A stretch of DNA of 64,000 bases from Microcystis wesenbergii NRERC-220. Lineage in GTDB: Bacteria > Cyanobacteriota > Cyanobacteriia > Cyanobacteriales > Microcystaceae. The position numbers and the translations under genes were made by a program. Shown here one piece after another: positions 6,874-20,779 of the stretch (positions within the stretch are counted from its first letter, which is position 1; each line of letters begins with the position of its first letter). The stretch spans positions 2,183,501 to 2,247,500 of the forward strand of contig NZ_JAVSJA010000001.1 of NCBI RefSeq assembly GCF_032027425.1, given 5' to 3'. The notes under the pieces were generated by a model. That model was not told the DNA's origin. It did not search any database and saw only the letters and a list, made by a program, of their open reading frames with translations.

Positions 6874-7299
6874 ATGTATCTGATCAAAAAGCATAGATTG
6901 GTTAACCTGATTAAAAAACATGAATTTGCCAGGTTTGTGTTAGTTGGCGTACTGAATACCTTATTCAGTTATTTTTTATATGGTAGTCTTATACTGATAG
7001 GACTAAATTATAAATATGCTGTCTTGCTGGCTACTATTCTGGGGGTTTTATTTAACTTTCAAACCACGGGAAAGTTAGTTTTTGGTAGCCAAAACAATAA
7101 ATTAATCTTTCGTTTTGTCTTAGTTTATGTGGTGACTTTTCTCTTGAACGTTGAGGCCCTGAGAATTGTTGATGCTATTGATATTGGCATCGAGCAAAAA
7201 ACTAAAATGTTAATCGCTGGTGCTATCTTGGTTCTTCCCATGGCTGTCATCTCTTTTATTTTAATGAAACTATTTGTTTTTAGAGAAAGATCACAATGA
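6874..7299 (+). CDS. GtrA family membrane protein (putative lipid-linked sugar flippase)
   Basis: 141 aa, four predicted transmembrane segments. The first helix carries the family signature FARFVLVGVLNTLFSYFLYG, and FNFQTTGKLVFG in the loop after helix 2 matches the conserved GtrA loop that contains the FxxxxxxVF pattern. GtrA proteins are thought to flip undecaprenyl-phosphate-linked sugars across the membrane. The gene overlaps the following GT2 gene by four bases (ATGA), a tight coupling typical of gtrA-gtrB pairs. Confidence 0.85.
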   Translation: MYLIKKHRLVNLIKKHEFARFVLVGVLNTLFSYFLYGSLILIGLNYKYAVLLATILGVLFNFQTTGKLVFGSQNNKLIFRFVLVYVVTFLLNVEALRIVDAIDIGIEQKTKMLIAGAILVLPMAVISFILMKLFVFRERSQ

Positions 7300-8228
7300 A
7301 GAAAATTACTGTAATGACTCCTTGTTATAATGAGGAAGGAAATGTTGAAGACCTTTACCTGCGGGTTAAAGAAGTCTTTAATCAGTTACCTAACTATGAG
7401 TATGAACATCTTTTTATCGATAACGCTTCCCAAGATAAAACTGTAGATGAATTAAAAAAAATTGCTCAAAAAGACTCCAGGGTAAAAGTCATCGTTAATG
7501 CTAGAAATTTCGGTCCCGTTCGTTCTGGTTACTATGGGATTCTTCAGTGTTACGGAGATGCGGTTATTCCTATCGTAGCAGATCTGCAAGATCCTCCCGA
7601 ATTAATCCTAGAATTTGTCAAGAAGTGGGAGGAAGGCTATAAAGTTGTTAAAGCGGTTAAAACTCCGATGAAAGAAGGAGCTTTTTTCTATTTCGCTAGA
7701 CAAATTTTTTATTATTTAATGGACAATCTTTCGGATATAAAAGTTACTAGAAATTTTACAGGTTTCGGGTTATATGATCAGAAAGTCATCAATGTTCTAC
7801 GAGAGATTAACGATCCCTATCCCTATTTTAGGGGACTCATTGAAGAGTTAGGTTTTGAAAGTTTCTCTTTTGAGTATCAACAACAACGGCGAAAACGGGG
7901 TATTAGTAGTTACAACTTCTATCGATACTATAGCGAGGCGATGCTGGGTATTACCAGTCACTCCCAAGTTCCCCTCAGACTGGCCACCATGTTAGGCTTT
8001 GCTTTGTCCCTCTTGAGTCTGGTAGTGGCGTTAGGTTATTTAATCGCCAAATTGTTGTTCTGGGATTATTTTCCTTTAGGAACCGCACCAATCATGGTCG
8101 GACTATTTTTACTCGCTTCTGTGCAACTATTTTTTATCGGTATTATTGGGGAATATATCGGATTAATGCACATGAGAATTTTAAAAAGGCCTTTAGTTGT
8201 CGAACGAGAACGGATTAACTTTTATTAA
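7296..8228 (+). CDS. GT2 glycosyltransferase, GtrB/DPM1-like
   Basis: 310 aa. The N-terminal GT-A domain starts with TVMTPCYNEEGNV and continues with FIDNASQDKT and the metal/nucleotide motif VADLQDPPEL. Two C-terminal membrane helices (LATMLGFALSLLSLVVALGYLI and LFLLASVQLFFIGIIGEYIG regions) anchor it, as in bactoprenol glucosyltransferases of the GtrB type. It would move a sugar from an NDP donor to undecaprenyl phosphate on the cytoplasmic face. With GtrA just before it and a GT-C protein gene just after it, it forms a complete Gtr-type three-gene cassette. Confidence 0.88.
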   Translation: MKKITVMTPCYNEEGNVEDLYLRVKEVFNQLPNYEYEHLFIDNASQDKTVDELKKIAQKDSRVKVIVNARNFGPVRSGYYGILQCYGDAVIPIVADLQDPPELILEFVKKWEEGYKVVKAVKTPMKEGAFFYFARQIFYYLMDNLSDIKVTRNFTGFGLYDQKVINVLREINDPYPYFRGLIEELGFESFSFEYQQQRRKRGISSYNFYRYYSEAMLGITSHSQVPLRLATMLGFALSLLSLVVALGYLIAKLLFWDYFPLGTAPIMVGLFLLASVQLFFIGIIGEYIGLMHMRILKRPLVVERERINFY

Positions 8229-8735
8229 TCTATAACTGTCGAACCAATGCCCCTATTGATCATGGAAAATTTTGACTTACGCTTATCTTTATTAAATACA
8301 ATAGAAAACCAATCTGGATTACCTAATCTATATAGGATAAGTCTAATTCTTGTATTATTCATATTTGTCGTTCTAGCGCTTTCTCCTACAATCTTCAACG
8401 AGTCGAAGGTTAGTAGATTTATCTTGCGGGTTTTCTCGGAACCTGTTTTTTTAGCGTGGACGGGGTTAGCGATTCTCGCTGCTCGTTGGCCAGTTTTACT
8501 CGCGCCCTCTATTAATTCGGATGAAGATATCTTCATTGCCGCCGCGATGAAACTGTTTAAAGATGCAGCTTTCTGGCGTTCGGTTGATACTGGCTCATCG
8601 GGTCCGCTGAATATTATACCCCTGACTATTCCTAAACTATTGAATATTCGCATCGATTACGCCAGCGATCGAGTTATCGGCTTATTTTTAGTTATTCTGT
8701 CCGTTATCTTTTTCTATTACTCGCTTAAATATTTA

Positions 8736-10157
8736 GGCTCTTCGGTAATTGTTATGCAAATAATTAACTTAAAATAAAATTCGATGATAGTGCTTACGCT
8801 CAAAAATAGCTGAAATCTATACAGGGAGAAATTTTAGACACAAACAGGTTAATACCAAAAGATAGACAATTGAGTTAAGATTTAATATAATAGCCAAAAA
8901 CCAGAGTATTTTACTTATGATACTTGACAAATTTTTGAACCTAGAAGGAACCTCTATTCAAGGCTATCGACACCTAGAAAATGTCGGTATAGTTTGACGA
9001 ATCGAATCGAAAAAGAAAAAAGCAATCTGTCCTCGTTGTGGGTTAGAGAGCGATAAACTACACCAAAATCATCGACATTTAGTCAAAGATTTACCGCTCT
9101 CAGGCCAACCAGTGTACCTACAAGTTAATCGTCGTCAATTTAAGTGCGATAATTGTCAGAAGCCCTTTAGCGAAGAGTTAGATTTTGTCGCCAGTAAACG
9201 AACCTATACGAAAAGACTAGCCGAGAATATACTTGAACAATTAAAATCAGGAGATATTTTAAATGTTAGCCGAAGAAATGACGTAACGGAAGAAGAGATT
9301 CAAAGAATGCTAGAGGACATCGCTGAAGAAATTACCGAGCCAGATTTATCGGAATTAAAAAGACTAGGAATTGATGAAATCGCTCTAGTGAAGGGACAAA
9401 AAAATTACTGTGCAGTTTTAGTAAATTTAGATACGGGAAAACTAATAGCTATTCTGGAGAAGCGAACACAAGAAGAGTTTAAGAAAACCCTTACGGGCTG
9501 GGGAAAAGAGGTGTTAGAGCCAATTGAAGAAGTAAGCATAGATCTTTGGTTGTCCTATAAAAATCTGGTAAAAGAATTGATGCCGTCGGCCGAGGTAGTC
9601 GCTGATAGATTCCATGTAATGAAACAAATTAATCAAGAGTTAGACGAACAGAGAAGAGCGGAAAAAAGAGCCGTAGAAGCGCGGAAAAATAAAAAACAGA
9701 AAGCGGAAAAAGAAGCGAAGCTAGAAGTTTTAAAGCGAAGTAAATATAGCCTGTTAAAAAATGAAGAAGATTTAACGGAACCCCAAAAAATCAAACTAGA
9801 AGCTATCAAAAAAACTTGGCTAAATTTGAAAGAGATGCACGAATTAAAGGAAGAATTCAGAAGGATTTACGAAACCTCAAAGAATCCGACAGAGGGAATG
9901 CTATCCATCTCGGAATGGTTGGCAAAATCCTCCAGTGTTTTTACCAAGAGTTGTCAAACAATCCGAAACTGGTTTGGAGAAATCATTAGTTATTTCGAGC
10001 GAAGGACAACGAATGGATTAGTCGAGGGAATCAACAATAAACTTAAACTAATAAAACGAAGAGGCTATGGCTTTAGAAACTTTCGGAATTTTTGGGTTAG
10101 AAGTATGTTGTCTTGGCATCTTGTCTGTTGATTTAGCATAAAGAGTAACGAAGAGCC
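8736..10157 (+). mobile_element. ISL3-family insertion sequence (1422 bp) with 8-bp target duplication
   Basis: The terminal inverted repeats begin GGCTCTTCG at both ends and continue imperfectly to ATGC, typical of ISL3 ends. The target duplication AATATTTA is at 8728-8735 and 10158-10165; ISL3 elements make 8-bp duplications. The element sits inside the GT-C gene and carries one transposase gene in the same orientation. The exact duplication shows that the insertion has not been rearranged since it occurred. Confidence 0.92.
8917..10131 (+). pseudogene. ISL3 transposase with one in-frame stop
   Basis: The frame opens at ATG 8917 and runs 404 codons, but codon 27 is TGA (8995-8997). After it the protein is intact: zinc-finger N-terminus (CPRCG, later CDNCQKPF), helix-turn-helix, then the DDE_Tnp_ISL3 catalytic domain with VADRFHVMKQIN and a C-terminal SxxxGLVEGINNKLKLIKRRGYG segment that contains the catalytic Glu. 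TGA is one transition away from TGG, so a Trp codon may have been lost. A downstream GTG (9112) could start a shortened protein that lacks the DNA-binding finger. Confidence 0.85.
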
Positions 10158-11192
10158 AATATTTATACGATAATCGAGTCGCCCGTATTGCGACTATCCC
10201 AGTTGTTTTATTTTTCTCTTTGGCAGTCCATAGTAATTTTGTTCATTATAGCGGCGAACATTTCCCGATCGCTATTTTAAGTACTGCTCTTTGGATTACC
10301 TGCTACGTTTACACCCGCGAGTTTAGCGATCGCATGGTTTTTATTTTTGGTGCAGTTATCGGAATGATGCCCTACGCAAAAATGCAGGGTCTTCCCGTCG
10401 CGCTGGCAATCACTTTAATTTTCGCTCACATACTTTGGACAAGAAAAGAAAGTATCCGACAATTTCTCAAAAGTTTAGCTACGCTTGCCTTAGGCTTATT
10501 GCTGTTTTCTGCTATCAATCTCTTTTTTCTAATTCTTTTTTCAACCTCTGAGGATTTCTGGAGAAGGTATACCCTCCAGAATTTATTAATTTATGCCGAT
10601 GTAAAGAACCTAGCCTTCGGGGAAAAGTTCAGCCAATTTATATCAATGGCTATAGCAAAGAGCGGGATAGTTAGGACATAATAGAGAAAAAGAAATGAGG
10701 AGAAGCTTTCATGGCAGCACCCTATAGTGATGATTTAAGACAGAAAGCAGTGAGTGCCGTAGAGCGAGGGGAGAAAAAAAGCCATGTCTGTCGCACCCTC
10801 AATATTAGTCGTAATACATTAGACATCTGGCTGAAACGGAAGAAACAAACTGGGACGGTGGCCGCTAAAACTAACTATCGTCGAGGGCCGAAGCCCCAAA
10901 TTGACGATTTAGAAGCCTTTCAAAAGTTGGCCGAACAATATGGGCATTTGACCCAAGAAAAAATGGCGCAAAAATGGGCTAACCCAGTCAGTAGGATGAG
11001 AATTGGTCAAGCCCTCAAAAGAATTGGATTTACTAGAAAAAAAAAACTTATGGCTACAGAGAAAGAGATGAAGAAGCCCGAAAAGAGTTTCTCCAAAAAA
11101 TCAGAGGTTATGCCCCGGAAAGATTTGTCTATATTGATGAAGCTGGAATAGATAAGTACCTAAGCAAAATTAATTACACATATCTAAACACC

Positions 11193-12367
11193 CAGAAACG
11201 TTGAATCCTGTAATAAAACTTTACATTGACAAGCATAATACCCCTATAACATCAAATTTTAAATTGAATAGACAATCCTCCGGAACCAGTGTACATAGCT
11301 AATATGTTGACACATGAAACTCTGTAAATAGCGCAGTTTGTCTAATAAGCTTTTCCCAAATCCTTCTTCAATATCTATTAGCTGTAGAATCAGATAAGCG
11401 ATAATGCAACTATAGATCTGTAGGCGGATTCCGTTCTCGTTTTTAGTGATTAGATTATCCAACTTTAGATGCATTTTTAAAAATTTCCACAGCAGTTCTA
11501 TTTGCCATCTTTGGATGTAAATTTCGGCAACTTCTTCATTACTAACTGCTCCTTCTCCTTCTAGAGGTAAATCTGTCGCCAGCCGAAATTCTGTTTGACT
11601 TTCTAGGTCGCAAAAAGCGACTACTCTTACTTCTATTTGTCTTTTATCTTTTCCGAGTTTACACTTGCCATTTTCGAGCATCTCTAGGCTAATATTATTT
11701 TTCACTCTCAAGACAAAATGCTTGTCACTACTCTCTAATAATTCGGTGATTCTTTGATTAGACGCAAATCCTCTATCCATTGCTCCAACTCCATTTACAG
11801 GAATTGCTTCTATCGTTTTTCCTCCTTCTTTTGAGTCATGACCTTGACCAAAATGGATGAGTATTCCGACCACCTCTGTTGTGATACTATTAAGACCAGA
11901 GAATAGTTTTACTTGATGCCATCCCTGGGACCATAGTAATTTACTGGTTAAGCTAATTATTGTTGAGTCAATAGGAAATAAAGCTCGCGCATTCTCTATT
12001 CCTTTTTTGGCAACTAAACGCTTATTTAATTCGACAATGACTTTCTCAAATGGACTTGTTTCTCTAATTTTGCTTGCCTTAGAAAATGTGGATAAATTTA
12101 CATTAATTCCTTGAAGTACCATTCTACTGCATAAGTCCCTCATACTGACGATGCTTTTATCTAAAGCAAAACCAATCCAACAGGACAAAAATGTAAAAGT
12201 ATCTAAAGCGGGGTAGTCATTTTTAGGCAGTGGTTTGAGAAGCTCTTTTATGAGTTTTGAAAAATTCGTCATCAGGGCAAACTCCCTATTGTGAGGGGAA
12301 TAAGTTGTCTAGATTCTATCTATAATAGCATTTTTTTTCTGACTTTTCTCAACGTTCAACACTTCTG
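11193..12367 (-). mobile_element. IS4-family insertion sequence, copy 1 (1175 bp) with 9-bp target duplication
   Basis: The ends are inverted repeats that start CAGAAGTGTTGAACG and CAGAAACGTTGAATC (imperfect). The target duplication, CTAAACACC on the + strand, is at 11184-11192 and 12368-12376. It is the same length as the copy at 16025-17199, encodes an identical transposase, and matches in all flanking element sequence compared by eye. It is inserted inside the MITE, so it is the youngest layer of the nest. Confidence 0.92.
11259..12272 (-). CDS. IS4-family transposase (copy 1)
   Basis: 337 aa, intact. The first catalytic Asp is in FPIDSTIISL, the second in VGAMDRGFASN, and the C-terminal YREK signature is exact: Tyr-x2-Arg-x3-Glu-x6-Lys in IYIQRWQIELLWKFLK (around residue 255). 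It catalyses cut-and-paste movement of its own element. The protein is identical to the one encoded at 16120-17133. No frameshift or stop is present, so the element is potentially active. Confidence 0.93.
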   Translation of the reverse strand: MTNFSKLIKELLKPLPKNDYPALDTFTFLSCWIGFALDKSIVSMRDLCSRMVLQGINVNLSTFSKASKIRETSPFEKVIVELNKRLVAKKGIENARALFPIDSTIISLTSKLLWSQGWHQVKLFSGLNSITTEVVGILIHFGQGHDSKEGGKTIEAIPVNGVGAMDRGFASNQRITELLESSDKHFVLRVKNNISLEMLENGKCKLGKDKRQIEVRVVAFCDLESQTEFRLATDLPLEGEGAVSNEEVAEIYIQRWQIELLWKFLKMHLKLDNLITKNENGIRLQIYSCIIAYLILQLIDIEEGFGKSLLDKLRYLQSFMCQHISYVHWFRRIVYSI

Positions 12368-13654
12368 CTAAACACCTCTTGCAAGAGGCAAGAGCGCCTC
12401 TTGCCTATCTTCACTAGGAAATTAATTTTGCACGACTACTTAACACCATCGATTACCCTTATGGATATTGTCACAAATCAGAAAGATTTGAGGCTTTAAA
12501 GTTAGGTCACTGTAGCGAAAGAGTTAGTGTGATCAGCGGTTGGTGGCGTGGTTCCACTATCGCGCCAATGGTGTTTGAGGGGTACTGTAATACAGAGTTG
12601 GTGTGTGAGTGGATAGAACAATTGCTATTACCCGAACTACTACCCGGTCAAATTATCATCATTGATAACGCCAGTTTTCATCCCAAAGAGAGAATCAAAA
12701 AATTGTTAGCTAAAGCGGGATGTGAAGTGCTATTTTTACCCGCCTATTCTCCAGATATCAACAAAATTGAAAAGTTCTGGGCTAGATTGAAAAACTATGT
12801 TAGTCAGATTATCAATGATAGTGAAAACCTTGTGGATGCTGTGAGTAAAGCCTTCAGGCATCTGTCCTAACTAACTCGTTCTATGCCATAGTAGTAAACG
12901 ATTAAACTCAAGTTCACTATTTCAAATTACCTCGATTTTTCTCATCGCCGCAACGATTTTGTTTTTCAGGGAAAGTATGGTGCGGCGAAAGCTATTTTTC
13001 ACAAATACTTTTATCTTCTTCTTCTACAGCCTGTTTATCCTAGTAGTTTCTATTTATGTCGCCGTTCGCCCTGGTAATCCTTTCCCGCATTATCTTCTTT
13101 TTCTTGTCTTCCCCTGTGGTTTTTTGATCGGTGTGGTAATCGGAGAAATTTTTAAATTGTCGGAGAATAATGCTTTTTATAAACAGATACAGTTTTTGAT
13201 ATTGCTGTTGATGATCGCAGCCAGCTTCCTACAGGGCTATACGTTGATCAGAAGCGAACACCCCTATCTCTCTCAACGCCAAAAATATCTTCAGGACTAT
13301 CAAACTCCCCTCGTGCGGACAATCTTACAATACGCTTCACCGAATGATTCAATGGCGATCTGGGGCAAGAGGGGTGATCTATATATAGAGACTGGACTGT
13401 ATCAGGGAGTTAGAGACGTTGGGATTAAATGGATGGTTTTTAAAAGTCCCCAGCAGGCTTATTATCTAAAAAGCTTCGCAGACGATCTATTAAAGTCAAA
13501 ATCAAAGGTTTTTGTAGATGCGATGGCTGGCGAGAAGAAGATTTATCGTTACGATGCCTATCCCGAAATCGCCACTGTGATTGAAAATAACTATCGCATG
13601 GTGGATGAAGTTGAGGGCATTCGGATTTATGTTAGAAAATAGAGTAGTGAAAAA

Positions 13655-15430
13655 ATGGTAAATAACCAAATTGATTTACGGTGGTGGCTACTGAGTAATT
13701 TGGCGACTATTCAATCTTTGTCAATTATTTACAGAATATCAGTAATAGTCACTTTTATTATCTTCATTTTTTTCACTTTTTCTCCTCTCATATTCCTGAG
13801 AACTCCCACGAGTAAGCTCCAGAAATTTTTATTGTCAAATATAATATTTATTACATCTTTAGTGACTTTTATTTTAGCAGCACGCTGGCCAGGTTTCTTG
13901 CCACCAATGCTAAACCCCGATGAGGCACTATTTACCGCAGGTGCAATAAAACTGTTGAAAGATCCAGTTTTCTGGCGTGCAGTAGATGCAGGTTCATCTG
14001 GACCTCTCAATGTCTATCCTCTGACTCTACCAGCTTTTTTCGGGTTCAGAATTGAATATGCTAGTAGTCGCGTGATCGGCTTAATCATGATAATTGCTGC
14101 TATTGTTTGTCTTTATTATGCTTTATCCACTCTCTACAATAAGAGCCTTTCTCGCCTAGCAATAGTTCCCGTTGTTACCACTGTCGCCTTAATGACATTT
14201 TTTGACTATGTGCATTATACAAGTGAACATTTTTCAATTGCAATATTAAGTGTGGCTTTGTTAATCGTTTGTAAATATTATACTGGTAATTCATCTAATC
14301 CTAATCACCTGATATTTGCCTTGGGTTTTATACTGGGAACTACTCCCTTTGCCAAAATGCAGTCAGTTCCTATAGCTTTCTCAATTGCTTGTATATTTTT
14401 GCACATACTCTGGCTAAAAAGCAGAGGGAGAGGTCAATTAATCAGGAGTCTTGCTGCTTTCTTTCTTGGGGGAATGTTGTTCTCGGCTTTAGTTATACTA
14501 TATCTAACAATTTTCTCAATATATGATGCTTTCTGGACATCTTACATACAACAGAATTTATTGATGTATTCTACCCATGGTTTGATGGGAGACGTAAATA
14601 AAATGAGCTTTTTCCGAAAAATTCTCAGATTTCTTAATATGTTAAGAAAAGCGCAAGATACACATATATTATTTTTATTAACAGCAATTGTCTTGATATT
14701 AGGAGTACCATTTCTAGTATTAAAGCGTGTTTCCTTAAACCTAAATCAAGAAAAGTCCAAGACATTTTGCTTTGTCTATTACAGTTTATTTATTTTGGCT
14801 GCGTCGAGTTATTCAATTATTAGACCAGGGAACGGGTTTACTCATTATTTACTGTTTCTAATCATACCTAGTGGATTTCTCATCGGCGTTTTTTTAGGTG
14901 AACTGGCAAAAGTCTTACAGCTGTCGCAATTAACCCTTTCAAACTTAAAGTTCTCTCTTTTAACAGGTGTCATTTTTATTGCAGTTGCTAGTAGTTTTTT
15001 ACAATTTGCCGTAACAATAACATCAGATAATTTTTACCTCAATAATCGCAGAAGATTTGCTAGAAATTATCTCAGTCCGATTGCAAAAACTATTCTCAAG
15101 TATGCTTCTCCTGGTGAATCTATGGCTGTCTGGGGATGGGCCTCAGAGTTATATGTTGACACAAGCCTGGTACAAGCGACAAGGGATAGTGTTTCTGTTT
15201 GGCCAATCCTACCAGGTTCACTGCAAGAATATTTTCTGAAAAGATACACAGACGATCTTATTAATTCTAATGCTAAGTTATTTGTTGATGCTGTAGCTCC
15301 AAGAAGGTTTTTATTTACCGATAGAAAAACTCATGGACACGAAGTTTTTCCTGAAATTGCTAGGGTTATCAAGGAAAATTATCGGCTAGTTGATGAAGTT
15401 CAAGGAGTTCGTATTTATCTTAAAAAATAG
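13655..15430 (+). CDS. GT-C-like membrane glycosyltransferase, paralogue 2
   Basis: 591 aa, hydrophobic, about ten membrane segments. LAARWPGF precedes the acidic motif NPDEA (near residue 90), the place where GT-C enzymes hold their metal/donor-binding acidic residues, and AGSSGPLNVYPLTLP follows. The last 150 residues (KYASPGESMAVWGW... VIKENYRLVDEVQGVRIYLKK) form a soluble tail. It starts 12 bases after the end of the broken paralogue. Compared with the copy at 19001 it is near-identical over most of its length but diverges in a central block around residues 295-345, and it lacks one Ile before NPDEA. It probably transfers a lipid-linked sugar to surface glycan; the acceptor is unknown. 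Confidence 0.75.
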   Translation: MVNNQIDLRWWLLSNLATIQSLSIIYRISVIVTFIIFIFFTFSPLIFLRTPTSKLQKFLLSNIIFITSLVTFILAARWPGFLPPMLNPDEALFTAGAIKLLKDPVFWRAVDAGSSGPLNVYPLTLPAFFGFRIEYASSRVIGLIMIIAAIVCLYYALSTLYNKSLSRLAIVPVVTTVALMTFFDYVHYTSEHFSIAILSVALLIVCKYYTGNSSNPNHLIFALGFILGTTPFAKMQSVPIAFSIACIFLHILWLKSRGRGQLIRSLAAFFLGGMLFSALVILYLTIFSIYDAFWTSYIQQNLLMYSTHGLMGDVNKMSFFRKILRFLNMLRKAQDTHILFLLTAIVLILGVPFLVLKRVSLNLNQEKSKTFCFVYYSLFILAASSYSIIRPGNGFTHYLLFLIIPSGFLIGVFLGELAKVLQLSQLTLSNLKFSLLTGVIFIAVASSFLQFAVTITSDNFYLNNRRRFARNYLSPIAKTILKYASPGESMAVWGWASELYVDTSLVQATRDSVSVWPILPGSLQEYFLKRYTDDLINSNAKLFVDAVAPRRFLFTDRKTHGHEVFPEIARVIKENYRLVDEVQGVRIYLKK

Positions 15431-16024: not shown

Positions 16025-17199
16025 CAGAAGTGTTGAACGTTGAGAAAAGTCAGAAAAAAAATGCTATTATAGATAGAATCTAGACAACTTATTCCCCTCA
16101 CAATAGGGAGTTTGCCCTGATGACGAATTTTTCAAAACTCATAAAAGAGCTTCTCAAACCACTGCCTAAAAATGACTACCCCGCTTTAGATACTTTTACA
16201 TTTTTGTCCTGTTGGATTGGTTTTGCTTTAGATAAAAGCATCGTCAGTATGAGGGACTTATGCAGTAGAATGGTACTTCAAGGAATTAATGTAAATTTAT
16301 CCACATTTTCTAAGGCAAGCAAAATTAGAGAAACAAGTCCATTTGAGAAAGTCATTGTCGAATTAAATAAGCGTTTAGTTGCCAAAAAAGGAATAGAGAA
16401 TGCGCGAGCTTTATTTCCTATTGACTCAACAATAATTAGCTTAACCAGTAAATTACTATGGTCCCAGGGATGGCATCAAGTAAAACTATTCTCTGGTCTT
16501 AATAGTATCACAACAGAGGTGGTCGGAATACTCATCCATTTTGGTCAAGGTCATGACTCAAAAGAAGGAGGAAAAACGATAGAAGCAATTCCTGTAAATG
16601 GAGTTGGAGCAATGGATAGAGGATTTGCGTCTAATCAAAGAATCACCGAATTATTAGAGAGTAGTGACAAGCATTTTGTCTTGAGAGTGAAAAATAATAT
16701 TAGCCTAGAGATGCTCGAAAATGGCAAGTGTAAACTCGGAAAAGATAAAAGACAAATAGAAGTAAGAGTAGTCGCTTTTTGCGACCTAGAAAGTCAAACA
16801 GAATTTCGGCTGGCGACAGATTTACCTCTAGAAGGAGAAGGAGCAGTTAGTAATGAAGAAGTTGCCGAAATTTACATCCAAAGATGGCAAATAGAACTGC
16901 TGTGGAAATTTTTAAAAATGCATCTAAAGTTGGATAATCTAATCACTAAAAACGAGAACGGAATCCGCCTACAGATCTATAGTTGCATTATCGCTTATCT
17001 GATTCTACAGCTAATAGATATTGAAGAAGGATTTGGGAAAAGCTTATTAGACAAACTGCGCTATTTACAGAGTTTCATGTGTCAACATATTAGCTATGTA
17101 CACTGGTTCCGGAGGATTGTCTATTCAATTTAAAATTTGATGTTATAGGGGTATTATGCTTGTCAATGTAAAGTTTTATTACAGGATTCAACGTTTCTG
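16025..17199 (+). mobile_element. IS4-family insertion sequence, copy 2 (1175 bp) with 9-bp target duplication
   Basis: Same termini and length as copy 1. The target duplication CAGTTAAAG is at 16016-16024 and 17200-17208. The element is inserted in the opposite orientation to copy 1, inside the dead transposase on the other strand. Two identical copies with different exact 9-bp duplications show two independent, recent transpositions. Confidence 0.93.
16120..17133 (+). CDS. IS4-family transposase (copy 2)
   Basis: 337 aa, identical to the product of 11259-12272, with the same Asp residues (FPIDSTII, GAMDRGF) and an intact YREK signature in IYIQRWQIELLWKFLK. The 95-base leader between element start and ATG and the 66-base trailer are the same in both copies. 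It is presumably expressed from a promoter inside the left end; TATTATAGATAGAATCTAG in the leader contains a candidate -10 box. Confidence 0.93.
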   Translation: MTNFSKLIKELLKPLPKNDYPALDTFTFLSCWIGFALDKSIVSMRDLCSRMVLQGINVNLSTFSKASKIRETSPFEKVIVELNKRLVAKKGIENARALFPIDSTIISLTSKLLWSQGWHQVKLFSGLNSITTEVVGILIHFGQGHDSKEGGKTIEAIPVNGVGAMDRGFASNQRITELLESSDKHFVLRVKNNISLEMLENGKCKLGKDKRQIEVRVVAFCDLESQTEFRLATDLPLEGEGAVSNEEVAEIYIQRWQIELLWKFLKMHLKLDNLITKNENGIRLQIYSCIIAYLILQLIDIEEGFGKSLLDKLRYLQSFMCQHISYVHWFRRIVYSI

Positions 17200-19000: not shown

Positions 19001-20779
19001 ATGGTAAATAACCAAATTGATTTACGGTGGTGGCTACTGAGTAACTCGGCCAGTATTCAATCTTTGTCAATTATTTACAGAATATCGGTAATAGTCACTT
19101 TTATTATCTTCATTTTTTTAGCTTTTTCTCCTCTCATATTCCTGAGAACTCCCACGAGTAAGCTCCAGAAATTTTTATTGTCAAATATAATATTTATTAC
19201 ATCTTTAGTGACTTTTATTTTAGCAGCACGCTGGCCAGGTTTCTTGCCACCAATGCTAATCAACCCAGATGAGGCATTATTTATCGCAGGTGCAATCAAA
19301 CTGTTGAAAGACCCAGTTTTCTGGCGTGCAGTAGATGCAGGTTCATCTGGACCGCTCAATGTCTATCCTCTGACTCTGCCAGCTTTTTTCGGGTTCAGAA
19401 TTGAATATGCTAGTAGTCGTGTGATCGGCTTAATCATGATCATTGCTGCTATTGTTTGTCTTTATTATGCTTTATCCACTCTCTACGATAAGAGCCTTTC
19501 TCGTCTAGCAATAGTTCCCGTTGTCACCACTGTCGCCTTAATGACATTTTTTGACTATGTGCATTATACAAGTGAACATTTTTCAATTGCAATATTAAGT
19601 GTGGCTTTGTTAATCGTTTGTAAATATTATACTGGTAATTCATCTAATCCTAATCCCCTGATATTTGCCTTGGGTTTTATCCTAGGACTTACTCCCTTTG
19701 CCAAAATGCAGTCAGTTCCTATAGCTTTCTCAATTGCTTGTATATTTTTGCACATACTCTGGCTAAAAAGCATCGCAAGAGGTCAATTTATCAGGAGTCT
19801 TGCTGCTTTCTTTCTTGGGGGAATGTTGTTCTCGGCTATGGTCGTACTATATCTAACAATTTTCTCAATATATGATGCTTTTTGGAAATCTTATATACAA
19901 CAGAATTTATTGATTTATGCTACCCATGGTTTGGGAGGAAATCTAACGCAAGTAAGCTTTTTAGCAAAAATTAACATATTTATTAATATGTTAATAAATG
20001 TGAAAGATACACAGATATTATTTTTATTGACAGCAATTGCCTTGATAGTAGGAATACCATTTTTAATAATAAAGCGTTTTTCTTTAAGCCCACATCAAGA
20101 TAATTCTAACACATTTTGTTTTGTCTATTACAGTTTATTTATTTTGGCTGCGTCGAGTTATTCAATTATTAAACCAGGGAACGGGTTTCCTCATTATTTA
20201 CTGTTTCTAATTATACCTAGTGGATTTCTCCTCGGCGTTTTTATAGGTGAACTAGCAAAAGTTTTACAAGGGGCAAAATTAAATCGTTCAAACTTAAAGT
20301 TGTCTCTTTTGACAGGTGTAGTTTTCATTACAGTTGCTAGTAGTTTTTTACAATTTACTATAACAATAATATCAGATAATTTTCACCTCGATAATCGCAG
20401 AAGATTTGCTAAAAATTATCTCAGTCCGATTGCTAAAACTATACTAAAGTATGCTTCTCCTGGTGAATCTATGGCTGTTTGGGGGTTGGAACCAGAGTTA
20501 TATGTTGACACGGGCGTGGTACAAGCGACAAGAGATAGTGTTCCTCTTTGGCAAATCCTACCAGGTTCACTGCAAGAATATTTTCTGAAAAGATATGCAG
20601 ACGATCTGATTAATTCTAATGCTAGGTTATTTGTTGATGCTGTAGCTCCACGAATGACTGGAATTAAAGATAGAAAAACTCATGGACACGAAGTTTTTCC
20701 TGAAATTGCTAGGGTTATCAAGGAAAATTATCGGCTAGTTGATGAAGTTCAAGGAGTTCGTATTTATCTTAAAAAATAA
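19001..20779 (+). CDS. GT-C-like membrane glycosyltransferase, paralogue 3
   Basis: 592 aa, full length, the most regular of the three paralogues: LAARWPGFLPPMLINPDEALF holds the acidic GT-C motif, and the soluble C-terminal tail ends VDEVQGVRIYLKK. DNA identity with 13655-15430 is very high in the first ~290 codons and the last ~50, with a divergent middle (about 19925-20110) and scattered differences at 20260-20680. This is a mosaic pattern expected from gene conversion or recombination between tandem copies. The following YciI-like gene belongs to the duplicated unit. No promoter could be assigned; the upstream 60 bases differ from those of paralogue 2. Confidence 0.75.
   Translation: MVNNQIDLRWWLLSNSASIQSLSIIYRISVIVTFIIFIFLAFSPLIFLRTPTSKLQKFLLSNIIFITSLVTFILAARWPGFLPPMLINPDEALFIAGAIKLLKDPVFWRAVDAGSSGPLNVYPLTLPAFFGFRIEYASSRVIGLIMIIAAIVCLYYALSTLYDKSLSRLAIVPVVTTVALMTFFDYVHYTSEHFSIAILSVALLIVCKYYTGNSSNPNPLIFALGFILGLTPFAKMQSVPIAFSIACIFLHILWLKSIARGQFIRSLAAFFLGGMLFSAMVVLYLTIFSIYDAFWKSYIQQNLLIYATHGLGGNLTQVSFLAKINIFINMLINVKDTQILFLLTAIALIVGIPFLIIKRFSLSPHQDNSNTFCFVYYSLFILAASSYSIIKPGNGFPHYLLFLIIPSGFLLGVFIGELAKVLQGAKLNRSNLKLSLLTGVVFITVASSFLQFTITIISDNFHLDNRRRFAKNYLSPIAKTILKYASPGESMAVWGLEPELYVDTGVVQATRDSVPLWQILPGSLQEYFLKRYADDLINSNARLFVDAVAPRMTGIKDRKTHGHEVFPEIARVIKENYRLVDEVQGVRIYLKK

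Follow-up and report, generated by a model that had tools for sequence, protein, structure and literature searches.

Two insertions split a membrane-protein gene of Microcystis wesenbergii, and the nested IS630 element most likely arrived already carrying its MITE

We found that a 575-codon membrane-protein gene (8247-13642) of Microcystis wesenbergii NRERC-220 is split by two insertions, an ISL3-family element and an IS630 block, within the stretch of 64,000 nucleotides analysed here (contig NZ_JAVSJA010000001.1, positions 2,183,501 to 2,247,500, forward strand; hereafter the window). The IS630-family element contains a 102-bp MITE, this MITE contains an IS4-family element, and the ISL3 element lies separately in the same gene. 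We consider it highly probable that this gene, which follows a gtrA-gtrB-like pair, was inactivated by the two insertions, with the IS630 element most likely pre-loaded with the MITE.

Structure of the nest

The ISL3-family element (8736..10157, plus strand, 1422 bp) has a transposase frame starting from an ATG at 8917 and is flanked by exact copies of its target repeat, AATATTTA, at 8728..8735 and 10158..10165. The IS630-family element, identified by its transposase domains and ends and including the MITE and IS4, occupies 10653..12888 on the plus strand between exact TA targets at 10651-10652 and 12889-12890. Inside it the MITE, interrupted by IS4, spans 11155..12440 (plus strand; exact TA repeats at 11153-11154 and 12441-12442), and the 1175-bp IS4-family element lies on the minus strand at 11193..12367 (transposase frame 12272-11259) between exact 9-bp target repeats of CTAAACACC at 11184-11192 and 12368-12376. 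The inverted ends matched at 20/25 of the bases compared for ISL3, 22/30 for IS630, 17/24 for the MITE and 13/20 for IS4.

The family assignments were supported by NCBIfam models for the ISL3 transposase (NF033550, 304.6 bits against a cut-off of 180, in the part downstream of a TGA codon described below) and the IS4 transposase (NF033592, 151.2 bits against 115). The two IS630 fragments scored 88.5 and 40.7 bits, each alone below the whole-protein cut-off of 100, as expected for a transposase in pieces; between them they carry the HTH and DDE_3 domains (PF01710 and PF13358). A chance origin of the nest boundaries is excluded, since each of the 24 full-length IS4 copies detected in the regions analysed is flanked by exact 9-bp repeats and the sites in the gene are empty to the base in relatives. 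The first-pass annotation had described four layers with exact target duplications, and all four duplications and their boundaries were confirmed. Nesting does not, as had been supposed, date the ISL3 element relative to the IS630 element: the two lie side by side in the gene and neither is inside the other.

The broken gene and its neighbourhood

The broken gene consists of a 5′ piece of 163 codons (8247..8735, plus strand), which ends with one copy of the ISL3 target repeat, a middle piece (10166..10652, plus strand), which ends with the IS630 target TA, and a 3′ piece (12891..13642, plus strand). All three are open frames, the first also recognised from its orthologues, and no internal stop or frame lesion was found in any of them. 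Joined together, the pieces give a frame of 489 + 487 + 752 = 1728 bases, or 575 codons and a stop, and an uninterrupted orthologue in genome G004 is likewise exactly 575 codons long; those in G005 and G009 have 587 and 572. When the 5′ part of the gene was searched against 12 genomes of the genus, including the strain's own, nine gave matches, which were strong in five (G000, G003, G004, G005 and G009). The ISL3 site was empty, with flanks abutting without a gap, in 4/4 genomes reaching the site (G003 among them), and the IS630 site was empty to the base in 3/3. Both the restored frame and the view that the lesions are clean insertions, as put forward in the first-pass annotation, are upheld.

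When the broken gene was compared with its orthologues in G004, G005 and G009, Nei-Gojobori dN/dS came to 0.44, 0.60 and 0.44, compared to 0.47, 0.33 and 0.49 among these three intact orthologues. This similarity speaks for a recent breakage of the gene; 0.60 is the top value in the set, but the values give no clear indication of a long period of decay.

Upstream of the gene are a GtrA-like membrane-protein gene (6874..7299, plus strand; PF04138, 46.3 bits against a cut-off of 26.1) and a GtrB-like family-2 glycosyltransferase gene (7296..8228, plus strand; PF00535), neighbours which are a feature of gtrABC-type cassettes. Two intact paralogues of the broken gene are also open frames on the plus strand, encoding 591 aa (13655..15430) and 592 aa (19001..20779), and both share 42–43% identity with the 575-codon G004 orthologue. 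At E 0.001 no Pfam family was matched by one window paralogue and two of the gene pieces; at E 1, seven family members gave four weak matches, the best being PMP22_Claudin at 0.00069 in one member. A PDB sequence search at E 1 returned no relatives of the gene family, and AlphaFold run on seven family sequences gave a poor model (pLDDT 40.2). The broken gene probably encodes a sugar-transferring enzyme, and the putative GT-C label given in the first-pass annotation is plausible in view of gene order and membrane-protein character. The insertions would mean the loss of a probable surface-glycan modifying protein, a function suggested by gene order.

Among the 12 genomes the gene was intact in three and broken in the window strain; G003 has it broken at another place, and three genomes have no more than short traces of it. 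In G003 the sequence leaves the gene at about window position 10500, and an ISL3-like end follows approximately 60 bases on, where the contig stops. G001, G010 and G011 retain the gtrA-like and gtrB-like genes, with the gene itself reduced to matches of 43–52 bases; G011 belongs to the same species as the window strain. There was no match to the 5′ part of the gene in G002, G007 or G008, and the match in G006 falls in a paralogue. Relatives in which the gene is broken at other places, named in the first-pass annotation as telling against its reading, are thus represented in part by G003, which indicates that the gene has been lost repeatedly, but the nest itself stands. Repeated loss beside a kept gtrAB-like pair marks this as a variable, probably surface-modifying, locus of Microcystis.

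The insertions could also be viewed as a selected switch, in which phages, for example, would select for loss of a surface gene and excision could undo that loss. This repeated loss while the gtrAB-like genes remain would suit such a switch, as would the interruption of another glycosyltransferase gene by different transposase genes in lines of M. aeruginosa PCC 7806, described in the portion of PMC11448079 consulted. However, reversion would require two precise excisions, and the dN/dS values, being similar to those of intact orthologues, are no argument for selection. We regard a selected switch as doubtful, and inactivation by two insertions as the better account of the gene.

Copies of the elements

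The transposase frame of the window ISL3 copy has an in-frame TGA at codon 27 (8995). In the strain's own genome TGA was present at this codon in 20/22 distinct copies sampled, the window copy included, and the remaining two have TTC there and a frame break further downstream. In a sample of 30 rows (loci L104-L133), equal to 29 distinct ISL3 copies of which three are from the strain's own genome, codon 27 was TGA in 15, TTC in nine and TGC in five. Four TGA-bearing copies in the strain's own genome have exact 8-bp target repeats, indicating that TGA copies have moved. An exact 8-bp duplication was found at 5/18 full-length ISL3 copies, including the one in the window; eight of the 13 copies lacking it have common flanks inside composites.

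Of the 24 full-length IS4 copies, 17 are identical to the window's nested one (itself counted). A second window copy, also identical to the nested one, lies between the paralogues at 16025-17199, with its own 9-bp repeats. IS4 was also observed at one base in both orientations, at CTAAACACC (the window and locus L009, whose IS630 is very close to that of the window) and at CCCTTATGG (L012-L015 and L023). A matrix built from 19 IS4 sites departed clearly from randomness (mean leave-one-out percentile 0.973). A preference for certain sites would account for these double IS4 hits only in part: CTAAACACC ranks no higher than 123rd of 1038 positions when the matrix is trained on 16 of the 19 sites.

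The IS630 element is approximately 950 bp without its passengers. At least 30 full-length left halves are present in the strain's own genome (40 of 75 candidates scored), whereas none of the 11 other genomes of the genus has more than two matches, whatever their length, and the count falls as low as 0. Together with the identical IS4 copies, this agrees with the recency proposed for the layers, as regards the IS4 and IS630 expansions. MITE-free IS630 copies with adjacent halves occur in the strain's own genome; four of these, when translated, each gave two frames, the second of which reads on through the MITE site, in line with the claim that removal of the MITE restores the IS630 frame. The two frames would need to be joined by frameshifting, which occurs in IS630-type elements.

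The junction between IS630 and the MITE was found, at the identical base and in the same orientation, in 14 exact copies in the strain's own genome. The 13 besides the window copy sit in IS630 copies or fragments, and at least 11 of the 30 full-length left halves bear the junction; it was absent from the 11 other genomes of the genus with up to three mismatches allowed. The element fits the description of a MITE, being short (102 bp), non-coding and inverted at its ends (17/24 bases) and having many copies: a query holding a related MITE was matched over the MITE stretch in 12/12 genomes of the genus.

Right-half variant columns were scored in six MITE carriers, of which three were covered just at positions 1-362, and in 11 MITE-free copies from the strain's own genome. 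Columns 16, 80, 316 and 317 read C, A, T and A in all six carriers; the same type was present in three of the MITE-free copies (L020, L095 and L097), and eight differed. In the left half, MITE carriers have a mixture of haplotypes, indicating that IS630 copies also recombine with one another. The window IS630 has no private base in the variant columns, each being found in another MITE carrier. The core of the window MITE has five adjacent bases unlike those of nine other intact IS630-borne MITEs compared, which a 10-base inversion and one substitution would account for. It should also be noted that IS630 right ends occur as tandem 265-bp repeats, two to four in a row, in L012, L019, L023, L088, L093 and the composites described below, and that L021 (3541-5665) has an IS630 inside an IS4 copy, reversing the nesting of the window.

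Four IS630::MITE::IS4 units of 2239 bp (L012-L015) showed 0 differences in six pairwise comparisons. They lie at unrelated sites with four different flanks and have TA at both ends, the target also seen in the window copy; their IS4 sits at another base than that of the window, with the target CCCTTATGG. Composites, in which IS630::MITE holds a second IS630 with ISL3, were found in L009, L016, L017 and L018, each with different flanks. The composite is 3990 bp in L016, L017 and L018 (pairwise differences 0, 29 and 29, with L018 differing) and 5174 bp in L009, where its MITE holds an IS4. All four composites have the IS630 left end at both ends, in inverted orientation. Searches for empty sites of two units gave none: the upstream flank of L014 matches the strain's own genome alone of the 12, and the downstream flank of L013 matches G002, but without the upstream flank beside it in the stretch compared. 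Exact junction searches in viral contigs gave no hits, and when the 2240-bp block was compared with a plasmid collection, allowing near matches, there was no match.

Origin of the nest

The four identical 2239-bp units are best read as the product of whole-unit transposition. We read the junction and haplotype data as one insertion of the MITE into an IS630 element which would then have multiplied by transposition while its copies exchanged some sequence. As the same junction is present 14 times in the strain's own genome and not at all in the 11 others, the MITE most likely inserted into an IS630 at another site, before the arrival here, and the pair would have come into the gene together. 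The distinct core of the window MITE leaves some room for a separate MITE insertion.

Under this reading, the ISL3 insertion is one of two separate hits to the gene, and the other would be an IS630 that already had the 102-bp MITE at a fixed TA in its transposase frame. IS4, located inside the MITE, may have entered it either at the gene or in a donor copy. Since the transposase frame of the loaded units is split, an intact copy would have to supply the enzyme, and IS630::MITE would presumably move when transposase made by MITE-free copies acts on its ends. The sister nest, in four identical copies at unrelated sites, suggests that nests are not dead ends.

It is unlikely that a plain IS630 landed in the gene and that gene conversion with another IS630 copy later gave it the MITE. 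The mixed left halves of MITE carriers do show exchange between IS630 copies, but transposition is the simpler explanation for four 2239-bp units that are identical throughout and lie at unrelated sites. Gene conversion would also require a donor having the window MITE core, which was absent among the nine MITEs compared. Assembly of the nest wholly on site, from a plain IS630, then the MITE and then IS4, is the order which had been regarded as fixed by the nesting; the physical layers stand, but the claim that they fix the whole order is not supported, given a MITE at the same base in 14 places. Although every boundary has its own exact repeat and the window MITE core is distinct, such on-site assembly is very improbable, as it implies many independent hits to one TA to produce the identical junction 13 more times; nor does the window IS630 have any private base in the variant columns.

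Our preferred reading is that some of the load was most likely already in the nest when it arrived, in a genome where whole loaded nests appear to be mobile. We think it probable that nests in this strain are mobile elements in their own right, spreading whole on the enzyme of intact relatives, and that the stack in this gene was a delivered package; just as probably, the packages would be IS630 elements disabled by the MITE, some of which also took up IS4, or a second IS630 together with ISL3. The disruption of a variable, surface-type gene by insertion sequences is an ordinary class of event; the uncommon feature is the arrival, most likely, of a loaded nest. No description of whole-nest transposition in Microcystis was found in the literature searched, which included portions of PMC11448079, PMC10969869 and PMC3542288.

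Nested insertion sequences are often taken to have accumulated on the spot, with every layer marking the time of a local event. If, as is most likely here, at least one inner layer was assembled elsewhere and moved with its carrier, the dating of such nests changes. These nests would also be a natural case of internally loaded, self-disabled elements multiplying, presumably on the enzyme of intact relatives.

Comparison with known systems

The gtrA-gtrB-gtr cassette is an O-antigen glucosylation system, and the locus here resembles it in having a GtrA-like protein, a family-2 transferase and a large membrane protein in order. It differs in having three tandem third genes without a family match. 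The window IS630 element shares with the IS630 family (IS630-Tc1-mariner group) a TA target, a length of approximately 950 bp once its passengers are discounted, HTH and DDE domains and inverted ends, but it has a MITE and an IS4 in its transposase frame and is part of a multi-copy nested form. Microcystis ISL3 elements, according to the portion of PMC11448079 consulted, have ends starting GGCTCTTCG and 8-nt target repeats; the ends of the window ISL3 likewise start GGCTCTTCG and its repeats are 8 nt, but its transposase frame carries a TGA as codon 27. The MITEs of Microcystis and Anabaena are described in parts of PMC11448079 and PMC3542288 as short, non-coding, with inverted ends and able to disrupt genes. 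The MITE here is also short and non-coding with inverted ends; in contrast to the 187-nt ISL3-type MITE of Microcystis in that portion of PMC11448079, it is 102 bp long, has TA repeats, and lies inside an insertion sequence with which it has multiplied.
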